Below, piece by piece: positions 38-48,515 of a stretch of 64,000 bases of DNA; positions within the stretch are counted from its first letter, which is position 1, and the number at the start of each line of letters is the position of its first letter. The translations under genes were made by a program, and so were the position numbers. This stretch comes from Hydrotalea flava (lineage in GTDB: Bacteria; Bacteroidota; Bacteroidia; Chitinophagales; Chitinophagaceae): assembly GCF_001623405.1 (NCBI RefSeq), contig NZ_LUHG01000082.1, positions 19,651 through 83,650 of the forward strand. The letters are read 5' to 3'. The notes below the pieces were generated by a model. It made no database searches, had not been told where the DNA came from, and saw only the letters and a list, made by a program, of their open reading frames with translations.

Positions 38-1162
38 ATGGCTGCATCAACTGATACGATTAGCGCTCACATGCTGATTCATTTATTAGCTCAACAACAG
101 GTACAGTCTGCTAAGTTTTTTACAACAGGCACATTTCCATCATACAGAACATACCGGTACAATACATCTAAACCAGATGATAATATATTTTTTACGGGAC
201 TCATTGTATTCACACTAAAACAATTATATCCTTTAGCAGACAGTGCCGATAAAATTTTAATTGATTCCATCATCGAACGTGCAAAGTCTGCTTTCAAAAA
301 ATTTAAAAATAAAAAGGGAAGAAATACTTATAATTTCTGGGCAACCCATCCTTCTGTAGTATTTCCAAATGGTGGTTGGTTAAATCTGATGAACCGATCT
401 ATGGCGCTTCCCGATGATATGGATGATACGGTAATTGACTTGTTGGCTTTAGGCACAGATAGCATCTCTGCCAGTGCAGTACATTTACTGATGCAACAAT
501 ATACCAATCATTTAAATGGTAAAATAATTCGCAATACAAAGAAGCCACTTAAAAAATTACGGGCATATTCTACATGGTTTGGGAAAAAAATGCCCATTGA
601 TTTTGATGTATGTGTTTTGGCCAATATACTCTATTTTGTTCAGGCCTATCATTTACCTTTCACAAAAGCAGATAGTGCCTCGGTGGGTCTTTTAAAAATA
701 AGTATTGAAAAAAAATACATTTTAAACAGCAGTGCGATCATATCCCCACATTATCAAAGAACCCCGGTAATTTTGTATCATTTGGCCCGTTTAATGAGTT
801 TGTCTGGTTTTGATTTGCTGGACGAATCTAAACCTGTACTCATGCAAACAGCGCATCAAATTTTATCAAATTCATCTACTAATTATTTTGATAAAATAAT
901 TGTTGCAACCGCTTTATTAAGATGGAGTGAAAATATAAATTCTCCCTTAAAAATGGGTGTACCTCAAATCCAAAACTTTTTTAAGAATAATCAATTTGTA
1001 TTTTTTAAGGCCAATATGGGTTCTATTTTACCCAATCCTTTTAAAATGATATTTGAAAAACTGAATATTGGACAGTTTAATTATTATTCACCAGCATACA
1101 ATATTGTTTTGTTATTAGAATATCTTTTGTTGCAACAACAATACAATCAGGCTCATCCTTAA
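38..1162 (+). CDS. Hypothetical protein with DxDD motif, possible alpha/alpha-barrel
   Basis: I do not recognise this protein with certainty. From the ATG at 38 it has 374 residues and is rich in predicted helices. Around residues 126-131 it carries PDDMDDTV, which contains DxDD followed by T. That arrangement resembles the catalytic-acid motif of class II terpene cyclases, and a GGW sits just upstream. The size fits a single alpha-toroid domain, but I see no repeated QW motifs, so cyclase function is only a guess. The frame is open to base 2 and an in-frame TTG lies at 23, so a longer or edge-truncated form is possible. A T-rich TTTGC stretch at 12-16 could be a promoter for the 38 start. 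The stop codon at 1160-1162 is part of the yggS promoter box. Confidence 0.55.
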   Translation: MAASTDTISAHMLIHLLAQQQVQSAKFFTTGTFPSYRTYRYNTSKPDDNIFFTGLIVFTLKQLYPLADSADKILIDSIIERAKSAFKKFKNKKGRNTYNFWATHPSVVFPNGGWLNLMNRSMALPDDMDDTVIDLLALGTDSISASAVHLLMQQYTNHLNGKIIRNTKKPLKKLRAYSTWFGKKMPIDFDVCVLANILYFVQAYHLPFTKADSASVGLLKISIEKKYILNSSAIISPHYQRTPVILYHLARLMSLSGFDLLDESKPVLMQTAHQILSNSSTNYFDKIIVATALLRWSENINSPLKMGVPQIQNFFKNNQFVFFKANMGSILPNPFKMIFEKLNIGQFNYYSPAYNIVLLLEYLLLQQQYNQAHP

Positions 1163-1167
1163 ATTTG
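1160..1167 (+). promoter_or_regulatory. -7 box TAAATTTG of yggS
   Basis: The sequence matches the Bacteroidota -7 consensus TAnnTTTG and is followed by C. It overlaps the stop codon of the previous gene and ends four bases before the yggS ATG, so transcription from it would give an almost leaderless mRNA (inference). Confidence 0.6.
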
Positions 1168-1171
1168 CACT

Positions 1172-1840
1172 ATGGCAGCAGCAATAGAAGTATATCAGCA
1201 AATTTTACAGGAATTAAATGTAACCAACACTACTTTAATTGCGGTTAGCAAAACCAAACCGGTTGAAGATATTGTAGCTTTATACAACGCCGGTCAAAGA
1301 GATTTTGGTGAAAATTATGTTCAGGAGTTGATAGATAAAGCTGCATTATTACCTACAGATATTCAATGGCATTTTATTGGTCATTTACAAAAAAACAAAG
1401 TAAAATACATTGCACCTTTTGTTTATTTAATTCATGGGGTAGATAGTTTGTCTTTACTGGCTGAAATTAATAAACAAGGGCTAAAATGTAACCGGGTTAT
1501 TGATTGTTTGTTACAAGTTTATATTGCAAAAGAAGAAACAAAGTTTGGATTGAATGCGGAGGAACTAACCGAAATACTATCAACTGTTCAATCAGGTATT
1601 TTTTCAAATATTCGGTTAAAGGGATTAATGGGTATGGCAAGCTTTACTGAAAATCAATCTCAAATTAAATCAGAGTTTCAATATTTGAAGCATTTGTTTG
1701 AAAGCTGTAAAAAAAAATATCAAAAGCTATCAGATTTCACCATTCTTTCTATGGGAATGAGTAGCGATTATAAAATTGCCATTGCATGTGGCAGCAATAT
1801 GGTACGTATTGGCAGTTTATTATTTGGCAGCAGGTCATAA
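1172..1840 (+). CDS. yggS: YggS/PROSC-family PLP homeostasis protein
   Basis: This 222-residue protein belongs to the YggS/PLPBP family. These are single-domain alanine-racemase-fold proteins that bind pyridoxal phosphate and buffer vitamin B6 and amino/keto-acid pools in the cytoplasm without known catalysis. Visible landmarks are the PLP lysine in AVSKTKP (K27), DFGENYVQE (44-52), WHFIGHLQKNK (66-76), the GLMGMASF strand and the C-terminal CGSNMVRIGS phosphate-binding segment. The length is normal for the family. It has its own -7 box and a strong terminator follows. Another B6 gene, pdxJ, lies about 27 kb away. Confidence 0.95.
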   Translation: MAAAIEVYQQILQELNVTNTTLIAVSKTKPVEDIVALYNAGQRDFGENYVQELIDKAALLPTDIQWHFIGHLQKNKVKYIAPFVYLIHGVDSLSLLAEINKQGLKCNRVIDCLLQVYIAKEETKFGLNAEELTEILSTVQSGIFSNIRLKGLMGMASFTENQSQIKSEFQYLKHLFESCKKKYQKLSDFTILSMGMSSDYKIAIACGSNMVRIGSLLFGSRS

Positions 1841-1864
1841 TCATTCTTAATTTCGTATAATGGA

Positions 1865-1911
1865 ATCTGGTTTTGAATTGATATTTATCAAAACAAAACC
1901 AGATAATTTTT
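1865..1911 (+). terminator. Terminator after yggS
   Basis: A perfect 11-bp stem (ATCTGGTTTTG, 1865-1875, with CAAAACCAGAT, 1894-1904) has an 18-base loop and is followed by AATTTTT. It lies between convergent genes. Confidence 0.75.
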
Positions 1912-1948
1912 GAGCAGTATTCTTTTAAAATTTCAATCCAATTTTATC

Positions 1949-3241
1949 TTAAGGATGTGTTTTTGTATATTGAAAAACGATATTACAAAAAGCTTTTACA
2001 CCTACAGACAACATACTGTCATCAATATAGAAATCCGGAGTATGATGTGGTGGCGCTTTTGCAGGGTCCATTCCCTTGGGCATTCCACCTAAAAAGAAAA
2101 AGAATGCAGGCGCTTTATCACCATAAAAAGAAAAATCCTCGGCTCCGGTAGTCCAGTCAGATTCTGATACATTATTTTTCCCTGCAGCCAGTTCTAATGC
2201 CGGTAAAGTTGCTTTCACTAATTCGGGGTTATTGTAAGTAACTTCTGTTTTTGTATCAATAGAAACTGTTGCAGTTGCACCGGATGCTTCTGCAATTTTT
2301 TCTGCCGTGCGTATCATTCTTTCATGCACATCTTTCTGCATTTTACTGTCTAATGTTCTAATGGTGCCTTCCATTGTTAATGTTTCCGGAATAATGTTGC
2401 TGCGCACTCCACTATTAATTTTACCAACAGTAATTACAACAGGTGCTTTGGTTAATTCTTCCTGTCTGCTTACAATGGTTTGAAAACTCTGAATAATTTG
2501 TGCAGCTATTACAATAGGATCAATTCCGCTCCAGGGTTGCGAGCCATGCGAAGATTTACCTTTTACTTTTACGGTAAACCAATCGCTGGAAGCCATGGTA
2601 GCTCCGGATTTATATTTTATTTTTCCGATTTCGGTTTGAGAATTGATGTGTAAACCAAAAATAGCATCTACTTTCGGATGGTCCATTACCCCTTCTTTAA
2701 TCATTAAAGGTGCACCACCTTCTTCATTACCGGGAGGGCCTTCTTCGGCAGGTTGAAATATGAAAACAACGGTACCGGGTACTTCATTTCTCATTTTTGT
2801 AAGCACTGTAGCCGTTCCCATTAAAATAGCAATATGAGAATCATGCCCACAGGCATGCATTACGCCCACTTTATTGCCTTCATATTCTCCGGTAACTTTA
2901 CTGGCAAATGGTAATTGAACGCGTTCAACAACAGGTAGTGCATCTATATCGGCCCTTAAAGCTACAACGGGGCCAGGCTTGCCGCCTTTTAAGATGGCCA
3001 CTACACCGGTTTTAGCAACAGGATATTGTACATTTAATCCTAATTTTTTTAAATAAGCTGCAATGTAGGCGCCTGTATTGTATTCTCTGTTCGATAACTC
3101 AGGGAATTGATGGAAATGTCTTCGCCAGGTAATTACCGAATCATTTACAGCATTTGCATAAGTATTAATGGTATTTGTTTCATTTTGCGCAAATGCCAGT
3201 GAAGGCAGCATTAGTAAAAACAGTAGTTTGGCAACTTTCAT
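1949..3241 (-). CDS. Secreted M20-family amidohydrolase (peptidase M20D type)
   Basis: The 430-residue protein starts with a signal peptide (MKVAKLLFLLMLPSLAFAQ), so it should act in the periplasm or outside. It has the M20D layout of IAA-amino-acid hydrolase and N-acyl-amino-acid amidohydrolase enzymes. RRHFHQFPELS (40-50) comes first. Metal-binding MHACGHD (128-134) and PAEEGP (164-169) follow, and a dimerisation insert starts near 220. A C-terminal GAEDFSF metal motif ends the domain. These enzymes remove acyl or peptidyl groups from amino acids, but the substrate cannot be read from sequence. It is transcribed alone, with a separate serine hydrolase about 70 bp upstream on the same strand. 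Confidence 0.9.
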   Translation of the reverse strand: MKVAKLLFLLMLPSLAFAQNETNTINTYANAVNDSVITWRRHFHQFPELSNREYNTGAYIAAYLKKLGLNVQYPVAKTGVVAILKGGKPGPVVALRADIDALPVVERVQLPFASKVTGEYEGNKVGVMHACGHDSHIAILMGTATVLTKMRNEVPGTVVFIFQPAEEGPPGNEEGGAPLMIKEGVMDHPKVDAIFGLHINSQTEIGKIKYKSGATMASSDWFTVKVKGKSSHGSQPWSGIDPIVIAAQIIQSFQTIVSRQEELTKAPVVITVGKINSGVRSNIIPETLTMEGTIRTLDSKMQKDVHERMIRTAEKIAEASGATATVSIDTKTEVTYNNPELVKATLPALELAAGKNNVSESDWTTGAEDFSFYGDKAPAFFFFLGGMPKGMDPAKAPPHHTPDFYIDDSMLSVGVKAFCNIVFQYTKTHP

Positions 3242-3312
3242 AATGTTCGTTTTGATGGTTGGTATTCAAATGTAATGATTGCTTGGTATAAAATTACTTA
3301 CTGCTGGTTACA

Positions 3313-4836
3313 TTATTTTTTTATAAACAGATAGGGATCAAATTCAACAAAATCGCTGGCTTTAATTGGAATGCCTGTTACGGTATTATTTTTGGTTAAA
3401 AAGGAAGTAGTAAAAACGCCAAAAGCCGGGTTGTTATAAGTGAGCAGCCATTCATCATTATCCAAATATTGCAGTGTTGCCATTAAGTTTTGATGGCTGT
3501 TGAATTTGATCAATAAATTGCCTGGATTATTTTTTTCTTCAGAAATAGTGATCGTTCCATATAATGTATTTTCATATTGACCTGTATAGGATTTTAAAGG
3601 TAACGGTGGTGTATTGCCTTTAATTCGATCTTTCCATCCATCTATCTTTTTTATTGCTCTTGTTTCTTCATCTAAAAATCCGGGCAATACTGTTTTACTT
3701 AAATTTTCAAAAGGTAATTTTAAATAGGCATTTAAAATTTGATAGCGTAGTAATTCAAAAAAATCCTGATTATCCTGATTGGTAAGAATGGTGATACCCA
3801 GATTTTCTTCGGGAACAAAACAGGTATTGGTTACAAATCCAAATGCCCCACCGGTATGCCAGAAAACCTGTTTGCCATGGTAATCAGTTTCGAATATACC
3901 GAGTCCATAACCACTAAAATGTGACTCACCTCTTTTACGGCTGGAGATGATGGTAGCCATATCTCGGGTTGTTCTTAGAACTTCCCAGGGAATAATTCTT
4001 TTGCCATTATACCTGCCACTGTCTAATTGCATCATCAGCCATTTGGAAAGGTCGGAAACACAACTTAACAAACTTCCTGCCGGGCCTAAATTATCTACCT
4101 GATCGTAGGGGAGCAGTTGTAGTTTGCCCGAGAATGCAGTGGTATGTGGCTTGGCAGCGTTGGGCATTCTGCTGATACCATAGCCTAAGGTTTGTGTATG
4201 CTCCATTCCTAATGGTTGTATTAAACTATCGTATACATAAACTTCCCAGGGTTTTCCGGTAACTTTCGGTATAATTTCACCTGCAGTTAAAAAGCAGCTA
4301 TTGCAATAACCAAAATCCTGCCTGAAAGTACCCGATGGTTTTAAATAGCGCATTTTGTACATGATTTCATGCCGCGAATTTTTGCTGTCCCAAAAAGAAA
4401 AATCGCCCTGAAATGTTTTGGTACCCAAATGATGCGATAGCATATCATGAATGGTTACCATTTTGGTTACGGCAGAATCATACAATTGAAAATCGGGAAA
4501 ATATTTTATAATCTTATCATTTAAAGAAAGCTGATGATCATAAGCCAATTGTGCAAGAGAGGTAGCTGTAAATAATTTTGAATTACTGGCTATCATAAAA
4601 AGCGTGTTTTCATCAACAGGCGCTTTTGTTGTAACATCTCTTACGCCAAAGCCTTTCATTACTATTATTTTGCCATCTTTTATAATAGCAATGGCTAAAC
4701 CGGGAATATTCCAGTCCTGCATGCCCTGCTCAATGTAGGTATTTAAACTATCTTTAATAAAAGTAGGTTGCGCATTTAGCTTGGTAGTGCCGGTACAAAG
4801 CAAAATGAAACTTAGAAAGCTGATCAATTTTCTCAT
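3313..4836 (-). CDS. Serine hydrolase of the beta-lactamase / class C PBP family
   Basis: The protein has 507 residues and a signal peptide ending near LNAQ (residue 23). The penicillin-binding fold is shown by SNSK at 84-87 (catalytic Ser84, Lys87), YCN at 177-179 (the YxN motif) and HTGG at 327-330 in place of KTG. About 110 C-terminal residues beyond the catalytic domain look like the beta-barrel appendage common in these esterase/D-aminopeptidase-like proteins. Likely activity is periplasmic esterase, peptidase or beta-lactam-interacting; a true AmpC role is not supported. It follows the M20 gene in the same direction and may work on similar peptides (inference). Confidence 0.88.
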   Translation of the reverse strand: MRKLISFLSFILLCTGTTKLNAQPTFIKDSLNTYIEQGMQDWNIPGLAIAIIKDGKIIVMKGFGVRDVTTKAPVDENTLFMIASNSKLFTATSLAQLAYDHQLSLNDKIIKYFPDFQLYDSAVTKMVTIHDMLSHHLGTKTFQGDFSFWDSKNSRHEIMYKMRYLKPSGTFRQDFGYCNSCFLTAGEIIPKVTGKPWEVYVYDSLIQPLGMEHTQTLGYGISRMPNAAKPHTTAFSGKLQLLPYDQVDNLGPAGSLLSCVSDLSKWLMMQLDSGRYNGKRIIPWEVLRTTRDMATIISSRKRGESHFSGYGLGIFETDYHGKQVFWHTGGAFGFVTNTCFVPEENLGITILTNQDNQDFFELLRYQILNAYLKLPFENLSKTVLPGFLDEETRAIKKIDGWKDRIKGNTPPLPLKSYTGQYENTLYGTITISEEKNNPGNLLIKFNSHQNLMATLQYLDNDEWLLTYNNPAFGVFTTSFLTKNNTVTGIPIKASDFVEFDPYLFIKK

Positions 4837-4935
4837 AAAAATTAAAATATAGAGTGGAAGGTACTACATGCAAAGTGAACTGTTTCAAATTGCTTTAAAA
4901 ATATTCGTTTTCATCAGTTATCATATCATCTATTA

Positions 4936-5802
4936 TTATTGGAACAATATTGGCATAACAGTGTAACCTTGTTTACGGAATAATGCAATTAATCCTTCAT
5001 TTCCACCTAAATGTCCGGCACCAACAGCTATAAAACAGGAAGTTGCTTGCATTAATTGTGTTAATTTGGTTACCCAATTTTTATTGCGCTGAACCACCAG
5101 TTCATTTTGGTATTGTAGTAAATCATCCTCAGTGGTCAGACTTTGTTGAATGCTATCTATGTTCATACGTTTGTACATTGCCACCATATTTTTAAGTTCT
5201 ATTTTCGACCGATTGAAATGCAGCAGCGTTTCTTTTAACATATTGGCTTGTTGTTGGTAAGGTATGTCATCCAATATTTTAAATTGAAAACCGGCTGTTT
5301 CTAAACCCTCAATTGGAATATGATGCTGTTCTGCAATTTTTTGAATAGAAGTTTCTAAAGAAATGGGAGTGCAGCCCATTAATGCAGGATATAAGAACGA
5401 AGTAATTAGAATGGGTTTATAAAATTGAAAAAAACTGAGATTAATATTTGTTTTCTCTTGAAAAATATGATTCATAGAATCATAAGCAGGCGTGGATACA
5501 AAATTTTTAAGTGTTTGATTGTTTTGCATGGTCATTTCCTGCATCATGTTATTAAATAGAGAAGGGTCGTCTAATTTAATTTCAAAATAAACGGTATCAA
5601 CTTTTTGAATGATGCTGGAAATGGTATCTGGAAGTATAAATTCATTAGGGCATAATAAGTGGAAGGTACCGAAGATATAGGCATTGGCTGGAAGATGATT
5701 GCCTGATATGCGCCAGAGCAATGATTGTTGTTGCGGCTCTTGTGACTGTAATAGCAACGGTAATAAAAATAAAAAGAGGTAATATTTCCATTTTGTATTC
5801 AT
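4936..5802 (-). CDS. TraB/GumN family protein
   Basis: The protein has 288 residues with an N-terminal hydrophobic signal segment (residues 6-19). The TraB/GumN fold is indicated by the GTFH motif at 45-48, the YFEIKLDD segment near 70 and the C-terminal GAGHLGG motif near 260 that precedes EGLIALFRKQGYTV. The family has been proposed to contain metalloproteases related to Tiki, with the GxxH and GxGH histidines as metal ligands, but bacterial members have no assigned substrate. It is separated from the metal efflux operon upstream by a hairpin terminator and is probably transcribed on its own. Confidence 0.85.
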   Translation of the reverse strand: MNTKWKYYLFLFLLPLLLQSQEPQQQSLLWRISGNHLPANAYIFGTFHLLCPNEFILPDTISSIIQKVDTVYFEIKLDDPSLFNNMMQEMTMQNNQTLKNFVSTPAYDSMNHIFQEKTNINLSFFQFYKPILITSFLYPALMGCTPISLETSIQKIAEQHHIPIEGLETAGFQFKILDDIPYQQQANMLKETLLHFNRSKIELKNMVAMYKRMNIDSIQQSLTTEDDLLQYQNELVVQRNKNWVTKLTQLMQATSCFIAVGAGHLGGNEGLIALFRKQGYTVMPILFQ

Positions 5803-5840
5803 GTAATAGTTTTTTGATGAAGAAGCAATACAGCATAATA

Positions 5841-5870
5841 AAGCCGCTTCATGAAGATAAGAAGCGGCTT
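5841..5870 (-). terminator. Terminator downstream of the RND efflux operon
   Basis: A 10-bp stem AAGCCGCTTC / GAAGCGGCTT with a 10-base loop lies just after the pump gene stop codon. The T-tract on the minus strand is short (TTTATTAT). Confidence 0.65.
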
Positions 5871-5899
5871 TTAATTTCTACTAAAATTAATATAGAGAA

Positions 5900-8800
5900 T
5901 TAGCTTTTTGTTTCAGTAGTATTATCATTATCTGTGAGCGACTTATGTTTATTATCTACATTTCTGTAAGCCCATCCAAAGATTAATGGGAATACCCATA
6001 GCGAAAAGATCATGGCACATAAAATACCTCCAATTACAACTCTGGCCAAAGGTCTGGAACTTTCAGAACCAATACCATGTGAGATGGCCGCAGGCAATAA
6101 ACCAATGGCTGCCATTAAGGCGGTCATCATTACAGGGCGTATGCGCGATTTAACCCCTTCTTTAATGGCTGAGTATAATGTATTGGACGCACCCTTTATG
6201 TTTTCAAGATTGTGCTTAAATACTGTTATCAGTAAAACCCCATCCTGAATACAAATACCAAATAAGGCTATAAAACCAATACCTGCGGAGATACTGAAAT
6301 TGGTACCCGTTATATGCAGTGCTGCAATTCCACCCACTATTGCAAAAGGCACATTTAAAAAAACAAGCCCGGCATCTTTTAAATTGCCAAACATGGTAAA
6401 CAGCAATAGAAAAATTAATAATAAGCTGATGGGAACTACCTGTGCCAGTCTATGTTCGGCTCTTTTCTGATTTTCAAAATCGCCCTGCCATGCCATGGTG
6501 TAACCGCGTTTTAATTGTACAGCCTGGTCAACTTTTTTCTGCGCTTCTGCAATCGTACTGCCCATGTCTCTATCGCGTACAGAAAATTTAAGTGCAGAGT
6601 AACGTTGGTTATCATCCCTGAAAATTAAGCAGGGGCCTGTTTTTTCTGTGATGGTGGCAATTTCTTTAATGGGCACTTTAGAGCCACTTTGTGTTGGCAC
6701 CAAAAGGTTCCCAATATCTTCCGGTGTTTTTCTGAAATTTTCCGGAAGGCGAATACGAATATCAAATGTTTTAATACCCTCATACAATGTTGAGGCTGCT
6801 AAACCGCCTATAGCCATAGCAACCACTGCATTGGCATCGGCAGTGGCAACGCCATACATGGCCATTTTGTTCTGATCAAGATTTACATCTAACTCCGGTT
6901 GCCCAATGTTATGGATCACACCCAAATCGGTAATGCCACGAACATTTTTCAAGATATTATATACTTCCTGTATTTTGCCTTCCATATAATTTAAAGAATC
7001 ACCATATACTTTTACACTGATGGAACCTTTTACACCGGAAACAGCTTCTTCTACATTATCCATAATGGGCTGCGAAAAGTTTAGGTCAATACCTGGTATA
7101 TTGGATAAAGATTTGTTCATTTCTGCAATCAATTCATCTTTGCTAATTTTAGGTTTCCAGGAATCTTCGGGATATAGCATCACAGAAAATTCATTGTTGT
7201 AAAATCCAGCTACATCTGTACCATCATCGGGCCGGCCTGTTTGCGATACTGCATATTTTACTTGTGGAAAGCCCATTAAAATTTTACGAACCTGTTTTGA
7301 AATTTCAACCGATTTATCTAAGGAAATGCTGTAAGGTGTTTGCACCCTTAACCAGATAGAACCTTCATCTAATTCAGGTAAAAACTCAGAGCCCAGGTAT
7401 TTGAAAGAATAAAGACCACCTACCATAATTACCAATGCAATGGGTACAACCCATTTTCTTCTTTTGTAAGCACCTGCAAATCCTTTCTGCATAAAACCAG
7501 TGAGGGCTTCTACAAAAGGATTGTGTTTTTCGTGCACATTTTTTCTAAGCAATAAGCTTATTAAAACAGGTACCAGTGTTAGTGTTGTAATCAGTGCACC
7601 CAATAAGGCAAAACCCAATGTATAAGCCAATGGCGAGAACATTTTCCCTTCCACTTTCTGAAAAGCAAAAATGGGTAAGAGGCCTGTTATAATAATCACT
7701 TTTGCAAAGAAAATAGCTTTCCCTAATTGGGCTCCATTTTTCCTGATTAACCCTAGTTTGGCAATTTTATTGAATCGCTCCATGCCCATTTCTTTGGCTT
7801 TATGGTCAAGTATTACAAACATACCTTCCACCATGACGACCGCACCATCTATAATAATACCAAAGTCAACTGCACCCAATGATAACAAATTGGCACTCAT
7901 GCCCATTAAGCGCAAACAAATAAAGGCAAACAACAAGGCCATGGGGATAATAATGGAAACAATTAAAGTGGTACGCCAGTTAAACATGAAGAGCGAAACC
8001 AATAAGGTAACCAGCAATATGCCTTCCACCAAATTATGCAGTACGGTATGTGTTGCATAATTAATTAAATCGGTTCTATCGTAATAAGGAACAATTTGTG
8101 TATCAGCAGGTAAAATAAACTGATTCAGTTTATCTATTTTATCTTTAATGGCATTCAATACTTTGGTAGGATTTTCACCTTTGCGCATTAAGATAATGGC
8201 TTCTACTACATCGGGTTCATCGGTTGCAACCCTTGTTCCATCCTTGTTTACCAAGCCATTTGAACGGGCTACCCAGCCTAAGCGGGGTAAGTTAGAAATT
8301 TCAACGTTAGCAACATCTTTTACCAGTACCGGTACCCCGTTGATGTTTTCAATAATGATGTTTTTGATTTCATTAATATCATTCAATAAACCAATACCTC
8401 GCACTACAAAAGCCTGGTTATTTTGAATAATAACATCTCCGCCAATATTAATATTTGTTTTTTGTACAGCAGTAAATACATCGAGCGGAGTAATACCCAG
8501 ATTGGTGAGTTTTTCGGGGTTTACCTGTATTTCATAAGTTTTAGTTTTTCCGCCAAAACTTACAATATCGCCAACACCGGGAACGGAGCGCAATTGACGA
8601 TCAATGACCCAGTCTTGCATGGTTTTTAATTCTCTTACATCTCTGATATTGCTTTTGAGGGTATAGCGATAAATTTCGCCGGTTGGGCCGGTAGGAGGTT
8701 GAACTGAAGGATTAACGCCTGCAGGAAGATTGGCATTACCCAACAAATTCATTACCTGCTGACGGGCTTGTGGGTCTTTTACATTATCATCAAATATCAA

Positions 8801-9091
8801 TTTTACATAGGACAAGCCAAAAATGGTTGATGAACGAAGACTCACTTTATCTTGTACCGGATTCATGGCCAATTCTATAGGAATGGTAACAAACTTTTCA
8901 ACCTCTTCTGCGCTTCGGCCTGGCCATTGGGTGATAATGCTAATTTCAGTATTGGTAACGTCAGGAAATGCTTCAATGGGCATATTTTTAAAAGTAATAA
9001 TACCCACAATAATCATGGCCAACGACGCCAATAGTATAAAAAATTTATTTTTAAGCGAAAATCCAATTACGCTTTTTAATATTTTGATCAT
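5900..9091 (-). CDS. Heavy-metal efflux RND pump (CzcA/CusA family)
   Basis: This is a full-length 1063-residue inner-membrane RND transporter. Proton antiport drives metal-ion export through the adaptor and outer-membrane channel encoded just upstream. The first TM helix spans about 12-32. NMPIEAFPDVTNTEI (36-50) is typical of this family. TM4 carries AVDFGIIIDGAVVMVE (407-422), with the charged D409, D415 and E422 pattern of metal-exporting RND proteins rather than drug pumps. Two large periplasmic domains and twelve TM segments are evident. The metal (Co/Zn/Cd or Cu/Ag) cannot be decided from sequence. It is the last gene of the operon, 25 bp after the adaptor. Confidence 0.95.
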   Translation of the reverse strand: MIKILKSVIGFSLKNKFFILLASLAMIIVGIITFKNMPIEAFPDVTNTEISIITQWPGRSAEEVEKFVTIPIELAMNPVQDKVSLRSSTIFGLSYVKLIFDDNVKDPQARQQVMNLLGNANLPAGVNPSVQPPTGPTGEIYRYTLKSNIRDVRELKTMQDWVIDRQLRSVPGVGDIVSFGGKTKTYEIQVNPEKLTNLGITPLDVFTAVQKTNINIGGDVIIQNNQAFVVRGIGLLNDINEIKNIIIENINGVPVLVKDVANVEISNLPRLGWVARSNGLVNKDGTRVATDEPDVVEAIILMRKGENPTKVLNAIKDKIDKLNQFILPADTQIVPYYDRTDLINYATHTVLHNLVEGILLVTLLVSLFMFNWRTTLIVSIIIPMALLFAFICLRLMGMSANLLSLGAVDFGIIIDGAVVMVEGMFVILDHKAKEMGMERFNKIAKLGLIRKNGAQLGKAIFFAKVIIITGLLPIFAFQKVEGKMFSPLAYTLGFALLGALITTLTLVPVLISLLLRKNVHEKHNPFVEALTGFMQKGFAGAYKRRKWVVPIALVIMVGGLYSFKYLGSEFLPELDEGSIWLRVQTPYSISLDKSVEISKQVRKILMGFPQVKYAVSQTGRPDDGTDVAGFYNNEFSVMLYPEDSWKPKISKDELIAEMNKSLSNIPGIDLNFSQPIMDNVEEAVSGVKGSISVKVYGDSLNYMEGKIQEVYNILKNVRGITDLGVIHNIGQPELDVNLDQNKMAMYGVATADANAVVAMAIGGLAASTLYEGIKTFDIRIRLPENFRKTPEDIGNLLVPTQSGSKVPIKEIATITEKTGPCLIFRDDNQRYSALKFSVRDRDMGSTIAEAQKKVDQAVQLKRGYTMAWQGDFENQKRAEHRLAQVVPISLLLIFLLLFTMFGNLKDAGLVFLNVPFAIVGGIAALHITGTNFSISAGIGFIALFGICIQDGVLLITVFKHNLENIKGASNTLYSAIKEGVKSRIRPVMMTALMAAIGLLPAAISHGIGSESSRPLARVVIGGILCAMIFSLWVFPLIFGWAYRNVDNKHKSLTDNDNTTETKS

Positions 9092-9116
9092 TGCTTCAGA
9101 TTGAAATAAATGAAAA

Positions 9117-10220
9117 CTAATTGTTTAGAGTATCATAAATTAAAAGTGCTTGCGAGGCAATAATGCGATCGCCTACGTCAATGCCGGAAGCAATATAAGT
9201 TTTATCGCCAATGGTATTGATAACCTCTACTGGCGTAATGACGGCTACGCCATTACCCTGGTATTTTAAAACATAATACCGGCTGTTATCGAACACCAAT
9301 GCTTTAGATGAAATGCAAATAGATTGTTTGTTTTCTTTATTGGTAACCAATATACTGGCAAACATTTGTGGTTTTAATGCATAATCATTATTGGGCAAAA
9401 CCACTTTTACTTTCATTACTTTATTGGTGGGGTCTAACACATTCATCATTTTATCAACCCTGCCTTTAAATATGCGGTTGGGATATGAAATAGTGGTTAC
9501 ATCAACCGGGTTGCCGAGATGAATTTTACTGATATTCGATTCATATACATTGGCATAAATCCAAACATCTTTCAAATCAGAAATTGTAAAAAGGTTAGAG
9601 CTATTATCAGTTCTTATGGCTGTATTATTGGTTACATTTTTTTGAACAATAAAACCACTGATAGGTGCTTTAATCACATAATTGCCTTGTGTATTATTAC
9701 CATTAATTTTTAAAACTCTATTCACCATTTCTAGTTGGGCTACAGCTTGTTGATAAGCAGCTTCAGCTGCATTTACATCTAATTGTGAGGCAAGTCCACT
9801 TTTAAATAAATCGCGTTGAGCATCTAAATTTTTCTTGGCAACCGCTAAGTTAGTTTCTGCATTCACTAAGCTGTTGCTATATCCAGCCATTTCACTACTT
9901 TTAATAACAGCCAATATCTGACCTTTTTGAACATAATCTCCCAATTGTACTTTTACATCTTCCACATTACCACTTACTAACGGATATACATTTACTTGTT
10001 TATCCTGATTAAAATCAACAGTTCCGGTTAAGGTTAATGCGTCTACAAGTGGGCATTTTTGAACTGTATCTATTTTTAATGTTTTTAATAATGAGTCAGG
10101 AATTACATATTGTTGCCTTTCTTCTTTTTTTACCGATTCCTCTTTGCAGGCGGTAATACTGCATATAGAAACGGCTATAAAAAAAGCGGATACTATCCAT
10201 TTGTTATTAATATTTTTCAT
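9117..10220 (-). CDS. RND metal efflux adaptor lipoprotein (CusB/CzcB type)
   Basis: The protein has 367 residues. An N-terminal lipobox (SITAC, acylated Cys25) makes it a periplasmic membrane-fusion lipoprotein. A barrel-sandwich/lipoyl half motif (VYPLVSGNVEDVKVQLGDYV, about 81-100) precedes a coiled-coil hairpin (about 115-170). The returning lipoyl half (YVIKAPISGFIVQ) and a beta-barrel domain complete the membrane-fusion fold. The protein links the pump to the outer-membrane channel. No His-rich metal-binding N-terminus is visible. It lies 18 bp downstream of the channel gene. Confidence 0.93.
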   Translation of the reverse strand: MKNINNKWIVSAFFIAVSICSITACKEESVKKEERQQYVIPDSLLKTLKIDTVQKCPLVDALTLTGTVDFNQDKQVNVYPLVSGNVEDVKVQLGDYVQKGQILAVIKSSEMAGYSNSLVNAETNLAVAKKNLDAQRDLFKSGLASQLDVNAAEAAYQQAVAQLEMVNRVLKINGNNTQGNYVIKAPISGFIVQKNVTNNTAIRTDNSSNLFTISDLKDVWIYANVYESNISKIHLGNPVDVTTISYPNRIFKGRVDKMMNVLDPTNKVMKVKVVLPNNDYALKPQMFASILVTNKENKQSICISSKALVFDNSRYYVLKYQGNGVAVITPVEVINTIGDKTYIASGIDVGDRIIASQALLIYDTLNN

Positions 10221-41951: not shown

Positions 41952-41959
41952 TACTTTTG
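41952..41959 (+). promoter_or_regulatory. -7 box TACTTTTG of the his operon leader
   Basis: It matches TAnnTTTG and is followed by C. It lies 18 bp before the leader peptide ATG, so the leader transcript would start near 41963. Confidence 0.65.
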
Positions 41960-41977
41960 CTGCGTAATTAAAAATCA

Positions 41978-42028
41978 ATGAATTTAAACAACGTATACAT
42001 GCATCATCATACACTGCCTACTTTGTAA
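41978..42028 (+). CDS. Histidine operon leader peptide
   Basis: This short ORF of 16 codons encodes MNLNNVYMHHHTLPTL and ends with TAA at 42026-42028. Three consecutive His codons (CAT CAT CAT, 42002-42010) are the expected sensor of charged tRNA-His. It sits between a -7 box and a terminator hairpin, just before hisG. Translation has not been shown; the call rests on codon content and context. Confidence 0.8.
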   Translation: MNLNNVYMHHHTLPTL

Positions 42029-42097
42029 GCAGACGATGTTTGGTGTTTATACTTTTCATAACATTTGAAGCTTACTCCGGTAAGCTTTTTTTATTTT
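42025..42097 (+). promoter_or_regulatory. his transcription attenuator (antiterminator and terminator)
   Basis: The terminator stem AAGCTTAC (42068-42075) / GTAAGCTT (42080-42087), capped by a UCCG tetraloop, is followed by a U-rich tract to 42097. The strand GTAAGC at 42025-42030, overlapping the leader stop, can pair with GCTTAC (42070-42075). An inner pairing ATGTT (42036-42040) with AACAT (42060-42064) extends this alternative hairpin. A ribosome stalled at the His codons would leave 42025-42030 free and block the terminator; one at the stop codon would mask it. Confidence 0.8.
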
Positions 42098-42127: not shown

Positions 42128-42997
42128 ATGCGTATGCAAAACGAAAAATTAAAATTGGCAATTCAAAAAAGTGGCAGATTACATGATGATTCGATGAAAT
42201 TATTAAAGGAATGTGGTATTGATATTACCAATGGTGTAAATAAATTAAAAACCGAAGCCAGCAATTTCCCCATTGAAGTATTTTTTTTAAGAGACGATGA
42301 TATACCGCAATATGTAGAAGATGCTGTTGCAGATATTGGATTTGTTGGTGAAAATGTGGTGTATGAAAAAAATAAAAAGGTAACTGTGGTTGAAAAATTG
42401 GGTTTTGGAAAATGCAGATTGTCTATTGCCGTTAGAAAAGGCGATGTGTATGCCGGGCCGGAATATTTGCAGGGTAAAAAAATTGCAACCAGTTATCCCG
42501 TTTTATTACAACAGTACTTACAACAAAAAAATATCAATGCCGAAATACATGAAATTAGCGGCAGTGTTGAAATTGCGCCGGGAATTGGTTTAGCAGATGC
42601 TATTTGTGATTTGGTAAGCAGCGGTTCAACTTTATTTATGAATGGATTGGCAGAATCGGAAGTAATTTTAAATTCACAGGCAGTATTAATTCAAAATGAA
42701 CAATTACCACAGCACAAACAACAATTACTGAACAAATTATTGTTTCGTATACAGGCAGTAAAAAAAGCTAAGAATAACAAATACGTTTTATTAAATGCGC
42801 CCAACCATAAATTAGCTGAAATCATTGCTTTGTTGCCGGGTATGAAAAGCCCAACGGTACTGCCCTTGGCAGAACAAGGGTGGAGCAGTGTGCATAGTGT
42901 ATTAAGCGAAAATCAATTTTGGGATATTATTGAACAATTGAAACAAGCCGGCGCTCAGGGCATTTTAGTAGTACCCATTGAAAAAATGATTATTTAA
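42128..42997 (+). CDS. hisG: ATP phosphoribosyltransferase HisG (long form)
   Basis: This catalyses the first step of histidine synthesis, joining ATP and PRPP. From ATG 42128 it has 289 residues; Met3 (42134) is equally possible. KLKLAIQKSGRLHDDSMKLLKECGI is the family start, and the PRPP-site segment SGSTLFMNGLAE lies near 183-194. The C-terminal ACT-like domain of long-form HisG (about 214-289) is present and would allow feedback inhibition by histidine. The open frame back to 42065 lies inside the attenuator and is rejected. It is the first structural gene after the attenuator; hisD follows 12 bp later. Confidence 0.96.
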   Translation: MRMQNEKLKLAIQKSGRLHDDSMKLLKECGIDITNGVNKLKTEASNFPIEVFFLRDDDIPQYVEDAVADIGFVGENVVYEKNKKVTVVEKLGFGKCRLSIAVRKGDVYAGPEYLQGKKIATSYPVLLQQYLQQKNINAEIHEISGSVEIAPGIGLADAICDLVSSGSTLFMNGLAESEVILNSQAVLIQNEQLPQHKQQLLNKLLFRIQAVKKAKNNKYVLLNAPNHKLAEIIALLPGMKSPTVLPLAEQGWSSVHSVLSENQFWDIIEQLKQAGAQGILVVPIEKMII

Positions 42998-43009: not shown

Positions 43010-44293
43010 ATGCAAATTTTTGAAAATCCTTCCCATCAGCAATGGAAAGCAATATTACAACGTCCGGCATTAGATAATGCCGGTTTGCAGGCTACCGTGC
43101 AAAATATTTTGCAGGAAGTACACAAGAATGGTGATGCAGCTATTCGTGCATTTACACATTCACTGGATAAAGTTTTATTGGATAATTTTGCGGTGCAGGA
43201 AGCTGAGATTGCATCTGCAAGCTTCAAAATAAAACCTGAACTTAAAAATGCCATTCAGGTTGCAGTTAATAACATTACATTATTTCATGAAAAGCAATTA
43301 CAACCTGTTGAGAAAATTGAAACAATGCCGGGTGTTACCTGCTGGCGCAAATCAGTACCTATTGAGAAAGTTGGATTGTATATACCCGGTGGTTCAGCTC
43401 CTTTATTTTCAACCCTGTTAATGTTGGCTATTCCTGCAAAAATTGCCGGTTGTAAAGAAATTGTTTTGTGTACGCCTCCACGTAAAGATGGTACCGTTGA
43501 TGAAGTAATATTATATACAGCATCCTTACTTGGAATTAAAAAAGTATTCAGTATTGGAGGAGTACAGGCCATTGGCGCCATGGCATACGGCACCAATACC
43601 ATACCGCAGGTATATAAAATTTTTGGACCGGGTAATCAGTATGTAACCGCTGCTAAGCAATTGATACAACAGGAGGGTGTTGCTATTGACATGCCTGCCG
43701 GCCCCAGCGAAGTATGCGTATTGGCCGATGAATCGGCTAATGCAGCATTTATTGCAGCAGATTTATTATCGCAGGCTGAGCATGGACCAGATAGTCAGGT
43801 AATGTTGGTAACAACACATGCTTCATTGGTAACCTTGGTCTTGGAGGAAATTGAAAAGCAACTGAAGGTTTTGCCTCGTAAAACATTAGCTAAAAAATCT
43901 TTGGATAATAGCAAATGTATTGTACTTCAAAAAATGGAGGAAGCCATTGCATTTGTAAATGCTTATGCAGCCGAACATTTAATTCTGCACTGCCGGCAAC
44001 CGGAACTGATTGCCGAACACATTACCAATGCAGGTTCTGTATTTTTAGGTGCTTATTCTCCTGAAAGTGTAGGCGATTATGCCAGTGGCACCAATCATAC
44101 CCTTCCCACCAATGGTTTTGCAAAAGCTTATAGTGGTGTAAGTGTAGACTCATTTGTAAAAAAAATTACCTATCAGCAACTATCACAGGATGGATTGGCA
44201 TTAATTGGCCCATCAGTAGCATTAATGGCAGCAGCAGAAAGATTGGATGCGCACCGTAATGCTGTTCAAATCCGATTAAATACGATGGAATAA
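43010..44293 (+). CDS. hisD: Histidinol dehydrogenase HisD
   Basis: The 427-residue zinc enzyme oxidises L-histidinol to L-histidine with two NAD+. Conserved segments are VGLYIPGGSAPLFSTLLMLAIPAKIAGC (about 121-148), VAIDMPAGPSEVCVLAD (about 223-239), the AEHG metal-ligand region and SVFLGAYSPESVGDYASGTNHTLPT (about 343-367). The length is normal. It is the second gene of hisGDC. Confidence 0.98.
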   Translation: MQIFENPSHQQWKAILQRPALDNAGLQATVQNILQEVHKNGDAAIRAFTHSLDKVLLDNFAVQEAEIASASFKIKPELKNAIQVAVNNITLFHEKQLQPVEKIETMPGVTCWRKSVPIEKVGLYIPGGSAPLFSTLLMLAIPAKIAGCKEIVLCTPPRKDGTVDEVILYTASLLGIKKVFSIGGVQAIGAMAYGTNTIPQVYKIFGPGNQYVTAAKQLIQQEGVAIDMPAGPSEVCVLADESANAAFIAADLLSQAEHGPDSQVMLVTTHASLVTLVLEEIEKQLKVLPRKTLAKKSLDNSKCIVLQKMEEAIAFVNAYAAEHLILHCRQPELIAEHITNAGSVFLGAYSPESVGDYASGTNHTLPTNGFAKAYSGVSVDSFVKKITYQQLSQDGLALIGPSVALMAAAERLDAHRNAVQIRLNTME

Positions 44294-44320: not shown

Positions 44321-45370
44321 ATGTCATTCTCACTACAACAATTAATTAGAAAAAATATTGCTGCATTAAAACCCTACTCCTCTGCAAGAGATGAATTTAG
44401 CGGGGATGCTTCGGTTTTTTTAGACGCCAATGAAAACAGTCTGGGTTCTCCATTACTGAAATGGTATAACCGTTATCCCGATCCGCATCAAAAAAAATTA
44501 AAAGCTGCCATAAGCTCCGTAAAATCAGTTCCCGCCTCACAAATATTTTTAGGAAACGGCAGTGACGAATGTATTGATGTTTTATACAGAACTTTTTGTG
44601 AACCGGGAGTTGATAATGTAATTATTTGCCCGCCTACCTACGGCATGTACGAGGTATCAGCTGCCATTAATAATATTGAAATAAGAAAAGCACCTTTAAC
44701 AGAGCATTTTCAGTTAGATACCATTCATTTGGAAAATTTGGTAGACATTCACACTAAAATTATTTGGCTTTGTTCTCCCAACAATCCAACCGGTAATTCA
44801 TTGAATCGGGTTGATATTGAAACCATTCTCAACAATTACAACGGCATTGTTGTAATAGATGAGGCATACATTAATTTTTCGCGCCAAAAATCTTTTATTC
44901 AGGAGCTATCCGATTATCCTAATCTTGTTATTCTGCAAACTTTTAGTAAAGCATGGGGACTGGCCGGTTTACGATTGGGAATGGCTTTTGCTCATGAATT
45001 GATTGTGGAAATTATGGATAAAGTAAAGCCACCCTACAACATTAATCAGGTTACACAAGATTTAGTAACGGAAGCATTACAGGAAGTAGGAATGGTAAAT
45101 GATATGATTAAAGAAATAGTAGCCATGCGTGAGGCGTTAGCAAAAGTATTTCTTCAAATTCCCGTAGTTGAGAAAGTATACCCATCGGATGCTAATTTTT
45201 TATTAGTACAGGTAAAAAATGCATCATCGGTTTATAACTATTTATTAACAAAAGGTATTGTGGTGCGTGACAGAAGTAATGTGCAGCTATGCGAAGGTTG
45301 TTTGCGCATTACCATTGGTACTGAAAAAGAAAACACTTTATTGGTAGATGCCCTTGCAGCCATTGAATAG
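44321..45370 (+). CDS. hisC: Histidinol-phosphate aminotransferase HisC
   Basis: The 349-residue PLP enzyme converts imidazole-acetol phosphate to histidinol phosphate. The fold type I signature is clear: LDANENSLG near the start, NPTGN, DEAYINF and FSKAWGLAGLRLG (about 207-219) with the PLP lysine. It lies 27 bp after hisD. No terminator hairpin is evident before the next gene, which starts 130 bp later after a TATATTTG-like sequence. Confidence 0.97.
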   Translation: MSFSLQQLIRKNIAALKPYSSARDEFSGDASVFLDANENSLGSPLLKWYNRYPDPHQKKLKAAISSVKSVPASQIFLGNGSDECIDVLYRTFCEPGVDNVIICPPTYGMYEVSAAINNIEIRKAPLTEHFQLDTIHLENLVDIHTKIIWLCSPNNPTGNSLNRVDIETILNNYNGIVVIDEAYINFSRQKSFIQELSDYPNLVILQTFSKAWGLAGLRLGMAFAHELIVEIMDKVKPPYNINQVTQDLVTEALQEVGMVNDMIKEIVAMREALAKVFLQIPVVEKVYPSDANFLLVQVKNASSVYNYLLTKGIVVRDRSNVQLCEGCLRITIGTEKENTLLVDALAAIE

Positions 45371-45499: not shown

Positions 45500-46801
45500 A
45501 TGAAAAAATTATTTTTATCATTAGCAGTAACCACTATCTCTGCATTTTTTGTGCAGGTGCATAGTACTGTTTACAATGATTCAACCATTCAAAAACCAGC
45601 AGTTATTGTGCCTGATCCCGATAATGCAGGATTGATTTTACCCAAAGGATTCGGTGCTTTAAAAGTTACTGATGCTTATGGTAAGCCCAGGCATATTACT
45701 GTAACTCCGGAAGGATATATTTATGTAAAATTGGCTCGTTTATTTAACGGCAATGGTATTTATTTACTGAAAGATAAAAATGGTGATGGAAGGGTAGATG
45801 AAGGTAACGGATTTGGAAATTATATAGGTACCGGCATAGCATTGAAAAATGGTTATTTATATGCTTCATCCGATGAAAATGTTTATCGTTATAAACTGAA
45901 TAATCAGCATGAAGTATTAACACCCAATCAACCTGAAGAAATTATTCATGGGTTATTGAACAGAAGAGAACATGAATCTAAATCCATTACATTAGATAAT
46001 GATGGCAATATTTATGTAAATGTTGGTGCTTACTCCAATGCCTGTCAGGTACAAGACAGAGTAGCAGGCAGTCCGGGTATGAAACCCTGCCCCATATTAG
46101 ATTCTGCCGGAGGTATTTGGCAATTTAAAGCCGATCAACTCCATCAAACTTATGGTAACGGTGTGCATTATGCTACAGGTTTACGTAATGTAGTAGGATT
46201 AGACTGGAATACACAAACCAATTCACTGTTTGTTATGCAACATGGTCGTGATCAGTTGCATGATAACTGGCCCAATTTATATACCATACAACAAAGTGCC
46301 GAATTACCGGCTGAATGTATGTATGAATTGTATAAAGGTGCGAATGCCGGATGGCCATATATTTATTACGATCAAATACAACACAAAAAAATTTTAGCGC
46401 CCGAATATGGTGGCGATGGTAAAAAAACAGCAGGTGAAGATGCCATCAATCCTGTTATTGCGTTTCCCGGTCATTTAGCCCCGGATGGTTTATTATTTTA
46501 TACCGGAAATATGTTTCCCGAAAAATATAAGCACGGTGCTTTTATTGCTTTTCATGGTAGTTGGAACAGAGCACCTTTACCACAGGAAGGTTATTACGTG
46601 GTATTTGTACCTTTTAAAGATGGTAAGCCTACCGGAAAATGGGAAGTATTTGCCAATGGTTTTGCAGGAAAAGCACCCATCACATCGGCTCGAAATGCAC
46701 ACCGTCCCTGTGGTTTAGCGCAAGGCCCTGATGGTTCTTTATATGTAACAGACGATAATAAAGGTGCCATTTACAGAATTATTTATACCGGTAAAGAATA
46801 A
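45500..46801 (+). CDS. Exported sugar dehydrogenase of the PQQ-type (sorbosone dehydrogenase-like)
   Basis: The 433-residue protein has a signal peptide (residues 1-22) and a six-bladed propeller-like repeat pattern typical of PQQ-dependent glucose/sorbosone dehydrogenases. Matching segments are RHITVTPEGYIYVKL, KNGDGRVDEGNGFG, GIALKNGYLYASSDENVYRY, ATGLRNVVGLDWNTQTNSL and HGRDQLHDNWP; LAQGPDGSLYVTDDNKGAIYRI ends the propeller. It should oxidise a sugar or sugar aldehyde in the periplasm and pass electrons on. The next gene is a c-type cytochrome, the obvious acceptor. The pair splits the his genes. A Ca2+-dependent quinone-independent paralog cannot be excluded. Confidence 0.88.
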   Translation: MKKLFLSLAVTTISAFFVQVHSTVYNDSTIQKPAVIVPDPDNAGLILPKGFGALKVTDAYGKPRHITVTPEGYIYVKLARLFNGNGIYLLKDKNGDGRVDEGNGFGNYIGTGIALKNGYLYASSDENVYRYKLNNQHEVLTPNQPEEIIHGLLNRREHESKSITLDNDGNIYVNVGAYSNACQVQDRVAGSPGMKPCPILDSAGGIWQFKADQLHQTYGNGVHYATGLRNVVGLDWNTQTNSLFVMQHGRDQLHDNWPNLYTIQQSAELPAECMYELYKGANAGWPYIYYDQIQHKKILAPEYGGDGKKTAGEDAINPVIAFPGHLAPDGLLFYTGNMFPEKYKHGAFIAFHGSWNRAPLPQEGYYVVFVPFKDGKPTGKWEVFANGFAGKAPITSARNAHRPCGLAQGPDGSLYVTDDNKGAIYRIIYTGKE

Positions 46802-46912
46802 TGCCATATACATGATAATAGATTTTTTGTAAGACTTAAAATATGCTTTACTAAGGATGGTGCTCATGATGTTTGAAAAAATTACTGAATTCCAAATTAT
46901 TAATTTTTATAC

Positions 46913-47338
46913 ATGTTAAAAAAATATAGTTTTTTAATTATTGGTTTGTTTTTTATTTGGATATTTTCCGCTGCTATCCCCCCATTTCAAAATACAAGCA
47001 ATAAAGCATCCATGCAGCGCGGAGAAAAAGTGTATAATAAAGTTTGTCTTCCCTGCCACATGGCCGATGGGGGAGGTGTACCCAATATGAATCCGCCACT
47101 CATTCAAACTTCTTATGTACTGGGCGATAAAACAAAATTGATTTCAATTGTTTTGCATGGCATGACCGACAGAGTTGCTATTGATGGTGATTATTATTCT
47201 AATAATATGGCACCTCATAACGATTTAACAGATCAACAAATTGCAGATGTACTCACTTTTGTACGCAACAGTTTTGGTAACAAAGCCAGTGCCATTACTC
47301 CGACTGAAGTAAAATTAGTAAGATTTAAAAAAAAGTAA
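46913..47338 (+). CDS. Monohaem c-type cytochrome
   Basis: The 141-residue protein has an N-terminal signal segment ([23 protein letters not shown]). CLPCH at 45-49 is the haem-binding CxxCH, and Met99 in YYSNNMAPH is the likely second axial ligand. VPNMNPPL and the C-terminal [15 protein letters not shown] fit class I cytochromes. It lies 112 bp after the sugar dehydrogenase gene and probably accepts its electrons. Confidence 0.9.
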
Positions 47339-47375: not shown

Positions 47376-48515
47376 ATGAAAAAAATATTATTTATTGATC
47401 GTGACGGTACGATTATTAATGAAGTTCCACCCACTTACCAGATAGACAGTTTTGAAAAATTAAGTTTTTACCCAAAGGTATTTCGTTATTTGGGTTTAAT
47501 TGCAACAGAATTAGATTTTGAATTGGTGATGGTAACCAATCAGGATGGCTTGGGTACAACTGCTTTTCCGGAAAATAGTTTTTGGCCAGTGCAAGATTTT
47601 ATAATGAAATGTTTGTTACAGGAGGGAATTGAATTTAGTGCGGTACATATTGATAAAAGTTTTCCTGAAGAAAATGCCCCAACCAGAAAACCCGGCACCG
47701 GAATGTTAACTGAATACATCAATAATAGTAACTACGATCTGGAACATTCATATGTAATTGGTGATAGAATTACCGATGTACAGTTGGCTAAAAATTTAGG
47801 TTGCAAAGCTATTTGGCTGAATATGGATGAAACCTTAGGAAGTAATGAAATACAGCATGCCAGTACTGAATTAGAACCCTGTATTGCATTGAAAACATTA
47901 GACTGGAGTGATATTTATGCATTTTTAAAATTAAAAAGCAGAACTGTTATTCATGAGCGTAAAACCAATGAAACAAAAATTTTTATAGAGTTAAATCTGG
48001 ATGGAAATGGCAGTTCAGAAATTCATACAGGCATTGGTTTCTTTGATCATATGTTAGATCAGGTGGCCAGACATGGCAAAATTGATTTAAAAATTAATGC
48101 ACAGGGCGATTTACATATTGATGAACACCATACCATAGAAGATACAGGCATTGCACTGGGCGAAGCATTTGCCTTGGCATTACAGGATAAAAGAGGCATG
48201 GAGCGTTATGGCTTTGCATTACCAATGGATGAAGCTTCGGCGAAAGTGTTGATTGATTTTGGCGGTAGAAACTGGTTGGTTTGGGATGCTGAATTTAAAC
48301 GTGAAAAAATTGGTGACATGCCCACTGAAATGTTTTTTCATTTTTTTAAATCGTTTACAGATGCAGCCAAATGCAACTTAAATGTTTCCTGCAAAGGAGA
48401 AAATGAGCACCATAAAATTGAAGCCATTTTTAAAGCCTTTGCAAAAGCCATTCAAATGGCTATTAAAAGAGATCCGTTTAGTAATTATTTACCCAGCACA
48501 AAAGGGGTTTTGTAA
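47376..48515 (+). CDS. hisB: Bifunctional HisB: histidinol-phosphatase / imidazoleglycerol-phosphate dehydratase
   Basis: The 379-residue protein has two domains. Residues 1-170 form a HAD-type histidinol phosphatase: [11 protein letters not shown] holds the nucleophile Asp8 and Asp10, then VTNQDGLGT, then [13 protein letters not shown] with part of the metal loop. Residues about 190-379 form imidazoleglycerol-phosphate dehydratase, with [48 protein letters not shown] and a C-terminal [14 protein letters not shown]. The fusion is known in enterobacteria and Bacteroidota. It catalyses steps 6 and 8 of the pathway. Its stop codon begins the direct repeat of the next element. Confidence 0.97.

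Follow-up and report, generated by a model that had tools for sequence, protein, structure and literature searches.

The window, by which we mean the whole 64,000-nt stretch of DNA analysed here, carries a run of histidine genes on its forward strand. The first of these, hisG (42128..42997, with its start at the ATG at 42128 or alternatively at 42134), encodes the long form of the enzyme with a C-terminal domain and scores above cut-off with both TIGR00070 and TIGR03455; it is followed by hisD (43010..44293; TIGR00069), hisC (44321..45370; TIGR01141) and, beyond two non-his genes, a bifunctional hisB (47376..48515; NF003937). The two intervening genes (45500-47338) showed a weak likeness to a heme/PQQ-type dehydrogenase in one case and to a c-type cytochrome in the other, every match lying below cut-off. 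The window is nearest to the genus Hydrotalea (Chitinophagaceae); the nearest named relative by HisG identity was Hydrotalea sandarakina (89%), two genome bins being nearer (95% and 93%).

Upstream of hisG, and on the same strand, lies a sigma-A type -7 box, TACTTTTG (TAnnTTTG; 41952..41959), from which, by the box position of Flavobacterium psychrophilum (PMC9723704), a transcription start at about 41964 is predicted. A leader peptide ORF of 16 codons (MNLNNVYMHHHTLPTL; 41978..42028), which has counterparts in relatives, runs from the ATG at 41978-41980 to the stop codon TAA at 42026-42028 and includes three consecutive His codons (CATCATCAT; 42002..42010), the predicted stall site. Over the leader stop lies GTAAGC (arm 2; 42025..42030), which by pairing and folding would be the 5' strand of an antiterminator; its putative partner, GCTTAC (arm 3; 42070..42075), is common to the antiterminator and the terminator according to pairing, alignment and folding, and an inner antiterminator stem is predicted by folding in 42035..42066 (42035-42043 with 42057-42066). 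Folding and comparison with relatives place an intrinsic terminator hairpin, AAGCTTAC-TCCG-GTAAGCTT, with a UCCG loop, at 42068..42087, where it comprises arms 3 and 4, and a T-rich tract (42088..42097) extends from it to about 42097. The positions that the first-pass annotation had assigned to the -7 box, the 16-codon ORF with its HHH, the GTAAGC over the stop, the hairpin and the T-rich tract all hold in the sequence.

The first-pass annotation had also described this layout as simpler than the enterobacterial one, which proved incorrect, as it had overlooked a protector arm. Folding predicts that the inner part of arm 1, CTGCCTAC (42014..42021), pairs with 42025-42032 and that the His codons, its outer part, pair with 42036-42046, such that the His and Leu-Pro codons are paired to sequence at and past the stop and the window has a full 1-2-3-4 arrangement. 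In equilibrium folds we took the ribosome to cover 13 nt, counted from the start of its A-site codon. Without a ribosome, the pairing probability was 0.81 for 1:2 and 0.00 for 2:3; that of 2:3 was 1.00 whichever of the three His codons the ribosome occupied; and with a ribosome at the stop that of 3:4 was 0.95. The window is thus predicted to behave as a three-state switch, the real choice of fold depending on how fast polymerase and ribosome move, in ways that equilibrium folds do not capture. For the window taken by itself, the 6-bp GTAAGC/GCTTAC pairing was marginal (p 0.09 vs 100 shuffles), and the pairing of the His codons with the stretch past arm 2 was not significant against shuffles (p 0.355). 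Because the window's own GTAAGC/GCTTAC pairing is only marginal, the case for an attenuator rests on comparison with relatives.

We compared 190 hisG upstream regions (184 distinct), consisting of 30 from relatives, 80 from named contigs (the best 80 of 248 confirmed) and 80 chosen phylum-wide from among the 252 genomes that gave a match out of 296 drawn. Regions were grouped by family; the set of the window's family (f1) holds 105 regions, of which 80 are named contigs assigned by closeness of HisG rather than by label. A leader was called as a short ORF with at least three His in seven codons and a terminator as a hairpin with a folding energy of at most -8 kcal/mol and T residues after it. 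The conserved His runs that the first-pass annotation had proposed looking for were found: within 300 nt of hisG, 170/184 regions had a His-rich leader and 149/184 a leader and terminator, as compared with 3/184 and 0/184 of the reverse complements and 74/1840 and 3/1840 of dinucleotide shuffles put through the same detector. The feature in the window is not a chance occurrence. Without the 300-nt limit, a His-rich ORF was identified in 174/184 regions, accompanied by a terminator in 154. In f1 the peptide approximates MKxxxHIHHHHxLPxG/R, with a median of five His per 9-codon stretch (range 3-6, n=104), the HHH of the window being at the low end.

Leader and terminator occurred together in nearly all f1 regions (103/105), in all those of f24 (16/16), f53 (5/5), f18 (4/4), f35 (4/4), f23 (3/3), f30 (2/2) and other families of the order (3/3), in part of those of f27 (3/7), f48 (3/5), f29 (1/2) and f40 (1/2), and in none of those of f22 (0/4), f42 (0/4), f28 (0/2) and f54 (0/2). 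Among families represented by a single region they were present in f14, f19, f43, f55, f57 and f64 (each 1/1) and were not detected in f9, f33, f37, f44, f60, f61, f66 and f69 (each 0/1). As judged from sequence, the putative attenuator is present in several families of the phylum and is widely conserved. The leader calls in f48 and in region L118 may be due to chance. No leader of any kind was called in 10/184 regions (L028, L160-L163, L167, L186 and L188-L190), and a further 20/184 had a His-rich ORF with no terminator that reached -8 kcal/mol. The latter situation, a His-rich ORF before hisG with no strong terminator detected, was seen in L148-L151, L180-L183, L122-L124 and L126, which belong to f22, f42 and part of f27; either these ORFs are subject to another mode of control or the terminator was overlooked. 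One region, L094, is on a contig titled Beijerinckiaceae, yet the hisG there resembles those of Chitinophagaceae and the small SRP RNA is of the Bacteroidales type, and this contig is probably a mislabelled bin.

For the arms themselves we aligned the f1 regions, leaving out L026, L029, L030, L120, L100, L074, L088 and stretches of at least 150 nt and then removing rows at least 90% identical, which reduced 99 sequences to 73. RNAalifold predicted the terminator from the full-length alignment and, with arm 4 cut off, the 2:3 stem only. The 3:4 columns were 99.5% paired (maximum of shuffles 96.6%, 0/1000 as high). The 2:3 columns were 97.0% paired, falling to 24-52% when the partner was slid by 1-2 columns; their excess over partner shuffles was small (mean 95.8%, 1/1000 as high) because both arms vary little in the family, and due to this weak covariation within the family we relied on a test between families. 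The terminator arms are GGCTTACC/GGTARGCC in f1, CCCGTTTGAG/TCAAACGGG in f24, CCCCGGC in f35 and mixed in f53, and the partner strand in the leader varies along with them (GGTARGC in f1, CTCARGCG in f24 and GCCGG in f35). When arm 3 was swapped between families, each family's upstream stretch paired best with its own, the medians for own and other-family arms being -12.9 and -6.8 kcal/mol in f24, -16.8 and -8.0 in f35, -15.5 and -8.7 in f53, -19.1 and -7.3 in f27, and -13.6 and -4.5 in f23; the contrast was smaller in f1 (-13.1 vs -10.2 kcal/mol), as some other families have the same arm. This joint change of the competing strand and the 5' arm of the terminator between families provides good evidence of an antiterminator under selection. 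Of the covariation that the first-pass annotation had proposed checking, the part between families is borne out by the swap test, whereas within the family that of 2:3 is weak. Two regions with strong 2:3 pairing have letters unlike the family norm, namely L030, where the pairing reaches into the terminator loop, and L094, with the arms GGTTCGCC.

Locus by locus, 2:3 pairing exceeded 100 shuffles at p ≤ 0.05 in 112/154 loci, including 16/16 in f24 and 4/4 in f35, and did not reach this level in L118, L159 and L100, among others. Pairing of the His codons with the stretch past arm 2 reached p ≤ 0.05 in 74/103 f1 loci (median -13.1 vs -7.1 kcal/mol for shuffles). The placing of the antiterminator strand over the stop codon, to which the first-pass annotation had drawn attention, is real in the window and is found in 92/103 f1 loci but in only 6/16 of f24; it is not the feature that is conserved, and what recurs is a spacing of ~20-35 nt between the first His codon and arm 2 (group medians 21 to 35.5 nt). 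In folding, the probability of 2:3 in its best state with a stalled ribosome was above 0.5 in 150/154 loci, and that of 3:4 was above 0.8 in 152/154. Without a ribosome, 1:2 exceeded 0.5 in 65/154 loci (52/103 in f1) and 2:3 did so in 63/154. On these folding models the predicted antiterminator is general and the protector is not, such that read-through would often be predicted for untranslated leaders.

Leaders of the same design were identified before other amino acid genes. In the genome that includes the window, trpE is preceded by a Trp leader, MKNTINNMWWWHSNLFWGL, and pheA by a Phe leader, MKQITANTGFCFFFYYYFIQ, each with a terminator. In the first set of loci from the family, a WW leader with terminator was present at 12/12 trpE loci and a Phe/Tyr-rich leader at 9/13 pheA loci, with two further pheA loci besides. 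Against shuffles, 2:3 pairing reached p ≤ 0.05 in 7/12 trp leaders, the window genome's own (0.169) not being among them, and in 8/8 phe leaders tested; for another short ORF, of L216, the value was 0.53. At the pheA locus L217 (G000:C31), a gap of 7 nt separates the -7 box from the ATG of the Phe leader, arm 2 comes immediately after the stop and the terminator is CCCGGC/GCCGGG. A Val/Ile/Leu leader was not found at 11 ilvB loci with the present criterion; the genes upstream of ilvB were outside this search, and no absence is claimed.

We consider it very probable that the region ahead of hisG acts as a ribosome-mediated attenuator of transcription, with charged histidinyl-tRNA as its signal, a reading based on sequence comparison and folding models. 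Between promoter and hisG lie a His-rich ORF, a strand overlapping its stop that is able to pair with the 5' arm of the terminator, and an intrinsic terminator; this His-rich leader, terminator and stop-proximal competing strand recur in relatives, where the competing strand covaries with the terminator arm, so that the first-pass reading of the locus as an attenuator stands. That pheA and trpE of this genome are preceded by leaders of like design also counts in its favour. In the proposed mechanism, the His and Leu-Pro codons would, with no ribosome present, pair at and just past arm 2 and leave arm 3 free for the terminator; a ribosome stalled at a His codon would cover arm 1, 2:3 would pair and RNA polymerase would continue into hisGDC; and with histidine plentiful a ribosome at the stop would cover arm 2, letting the terminator form near 42088-42097. 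The pace of the ribosome at the His codons is thus predicted to decide transcription of the his genes.

It is improbable that the terminator is constitutive, or answers some other signal such as a protein or small ligand, and that the His-rich ORF is incidental. ORF and terminator are separable, as there are regions in f22 (4/4), f42 (4/4) and f27 (4/7) with a His-rich ORF and no detectable terminator; however, the two co-occur in 149/184 regions vs 3/1840 shuffles, the spacing between the His run and arm 2 is a recurring one, the leaders of like design ahead of the Trp and Phe genes are rich in Trp and Phe respectively, and no Rfam ligand-binding family matched here. We give a similarly low standing to the idea that the leader ribosome blocks Rho-dependent termination or governs translation of hisG, with the hairpin playing a minor part: in the window as in its family set (103/105 regions) the terminator is intact with its U tract, and joint sequence change couples it to arm 2, although the terminator-less His-rich ORFs of f22 and f42 would, if functional, need another route. 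Conservation of the arms as coding sequence or DNA repeats rather than as RNA switches, to which the position of arm 2 within or over leader codons and the recurring LPxG/R end of the family peptide might point, is the least credible, as arm 2 lies past the stop and outside the codons in L027, L059, L078 and L097 with the pairing retained, and as f24, with different letters and codons (CAARGCG), still pairs with its own arm 3.

An exact TAnnTTTG was located within 45 nt before the leader ATG in 121/157 leaders (shuffle expectation 5.45). In f1 the box was present in 97/104 leaders, with a gap to the ATG of at most 10 nt in 85 and of 14-20 nt in 12 (median 7), and it lies 7-9 nt before the ATG in eight phe leaders and 19 nt before it in one ORF of L225. 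For ordinary ORFs having a box at most 60 nt away, the gap was 10 nt or less in 4/15 (3/9 in the window and 1/6 at other loci), a difference from the 85/97 leaders with a Fisher p of 2e-6, uncorrected for relatedness and drawn on a small background. Leader mRNAs that start at or near the AUG are known from rhizobial trpL and from mycobacterial or corynebacterial leaders. In the F. psychrophilum transcriptome the -7 box is reported to span -12 to -5 (PMC9723704), such that a gap of 4 makes the AUG the first base and a gap of 7 leaves a 3-nt 5' UTR. With a box usually 4-10 nt before the leader ATG, Chitinophagaceae outside Hydrotalea are thus predicted to have near-leaderless leaders; the window has a gap of 18 nt and three relatives of its genus gaps of 15-17 nt, so this claim is not valid for the genus Hydrotalea. 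The leaders here are like the rhizobial, mycobacterial and corynebacterial ones in that the mRNA would begin at or near the AUG, and differ in that this is predicted, from the -7 box distance, and not for the window's genus. For comparison, the figures given by the respective reports are 5.5% for leaderless mRNAs (PMC9723704) and ~3.7% for 5' UTRs under 10 nt in Bacteroides thetaiotaomicron (PMC7366714).

The Trp leader has a further link to histidine. Behind the Trp leader of the window's genome, with its WWWH, the genes trpEGDCFB-x-A-hisHAF form a single run, all oriented alike and no more than 60 nt apart (L256, G000:C8:71500-84300, 303-9743, reverse strand), which places half of the histidine pathway downstream of a Trp leader at this locus. 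In a draw of 60 genomes from the family, 48 had trpE and a usable upstream region; hisH was downstream of trpE on the same contig and strand in 30/48, was not in 14 and was unclear in 4. A WW-H leader was present in 28/30 of the hisH-linked genomes (one of the others having WWWQ and in one the leader not being found) vs 9/14 of the unlinked ones (Fisher p 0.010 for genomes with a leader, uncorrected for relatedness). Against a simple dual sensor of Trp and His, the His codon is often kept in unlinked genomes, WWWH has a single His codon, and a ribosome stalled at that His would extend to about the start of arm 2. It is a tentative and rather doubtful proposal that Bacteroidota regulate the synthesis of His, Trp and Phe through a common set of leader-peptide attenuators, almost leaderless in Chitinophagaceae, where the 70S ribosome would load onto the 5' end just as it emerges from RNA polymerase and coupling would need no Shine-Dalgarno step, and that the composite WWWH leader of trp-hisHAF senses both of the amino acids whose genes it governs.

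The enterobacterial his operon is controlled by a ribosome-mediated attenuator with a run of seven His codons, and Rfam includes a His leader family (RF00514). The putative Chitinophagaceae attenuator is like it in having a leader with His codons and mutually exclusive protector, antiterminator and terminator pairings before hisG, and unlike it in the lack of a sequence or covariance match, in having 3-6 His codons rather than seven and in its different arm sequences. A covariance search identified no Rfam His leader in the window at E-values up to 10, nor one reaching the gathering score in a search of the window together with 19 relatives, and the same was true of the T-box riboswitch; other Rfam matches in the surroundings were all sub-threshold and were judged to be chance.

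In 2010, leader-peptide systems had to the authors' knowledge not been shown outside Proteobacteria and Actinobacteria, and Firmicutes were then added (PMC2965389); the hisZ/hisS* leaders of Firmicutes described there have the same combination of His-codon leader and premature terminator and differ in the genes they precede and in phylum. The F. psychrophilum transcriptome paper (2021) reports strong clues for leader-peptide attenuation before amino-acid operons, and 5' elements of hisG and pheA that are conserved in Flavobacteriaceae and have no Rfam matches (PMC9723704). What the present comparison adds to that paper's account of these elements is the arms, the switch model and the spread past the family, to Chitinophagaceae and several other families. 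Leader-like sORFs are mentioned for B. thetaiotaomicron, his not being among them in the parts of that report consulted (PMC7366714), and a further source describes leader genes in many phyla and cites a 2010 comparative paper that may cover Bacteroidetes (PMC4833913). We found little experimental work on attenuation in Bacteroidota in the literature. As there are these earlier clues from Flavobacterium, and a comparative paper that possibly covers Bacteroidetes, the novelty is modest: what is new is the extent, the anatomy and the turnover of the arms, and not the kind of system.

Bacteroidota generally begin translation without Shine-Dalgarno pairing, and the his leader offers a concrete reporter of transcription-translation coupling in a phylum with this manner of initiation, as a working attenuator would need a ribosome close behind RNA polymerase on a transcript of ~130 nt. 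The families with differing arm sequences make up a natural series in which the logic of an RNA switch would be kept as its letters change, and those with a His-rich ORF and no terminator hint at a second, unexplained mode.
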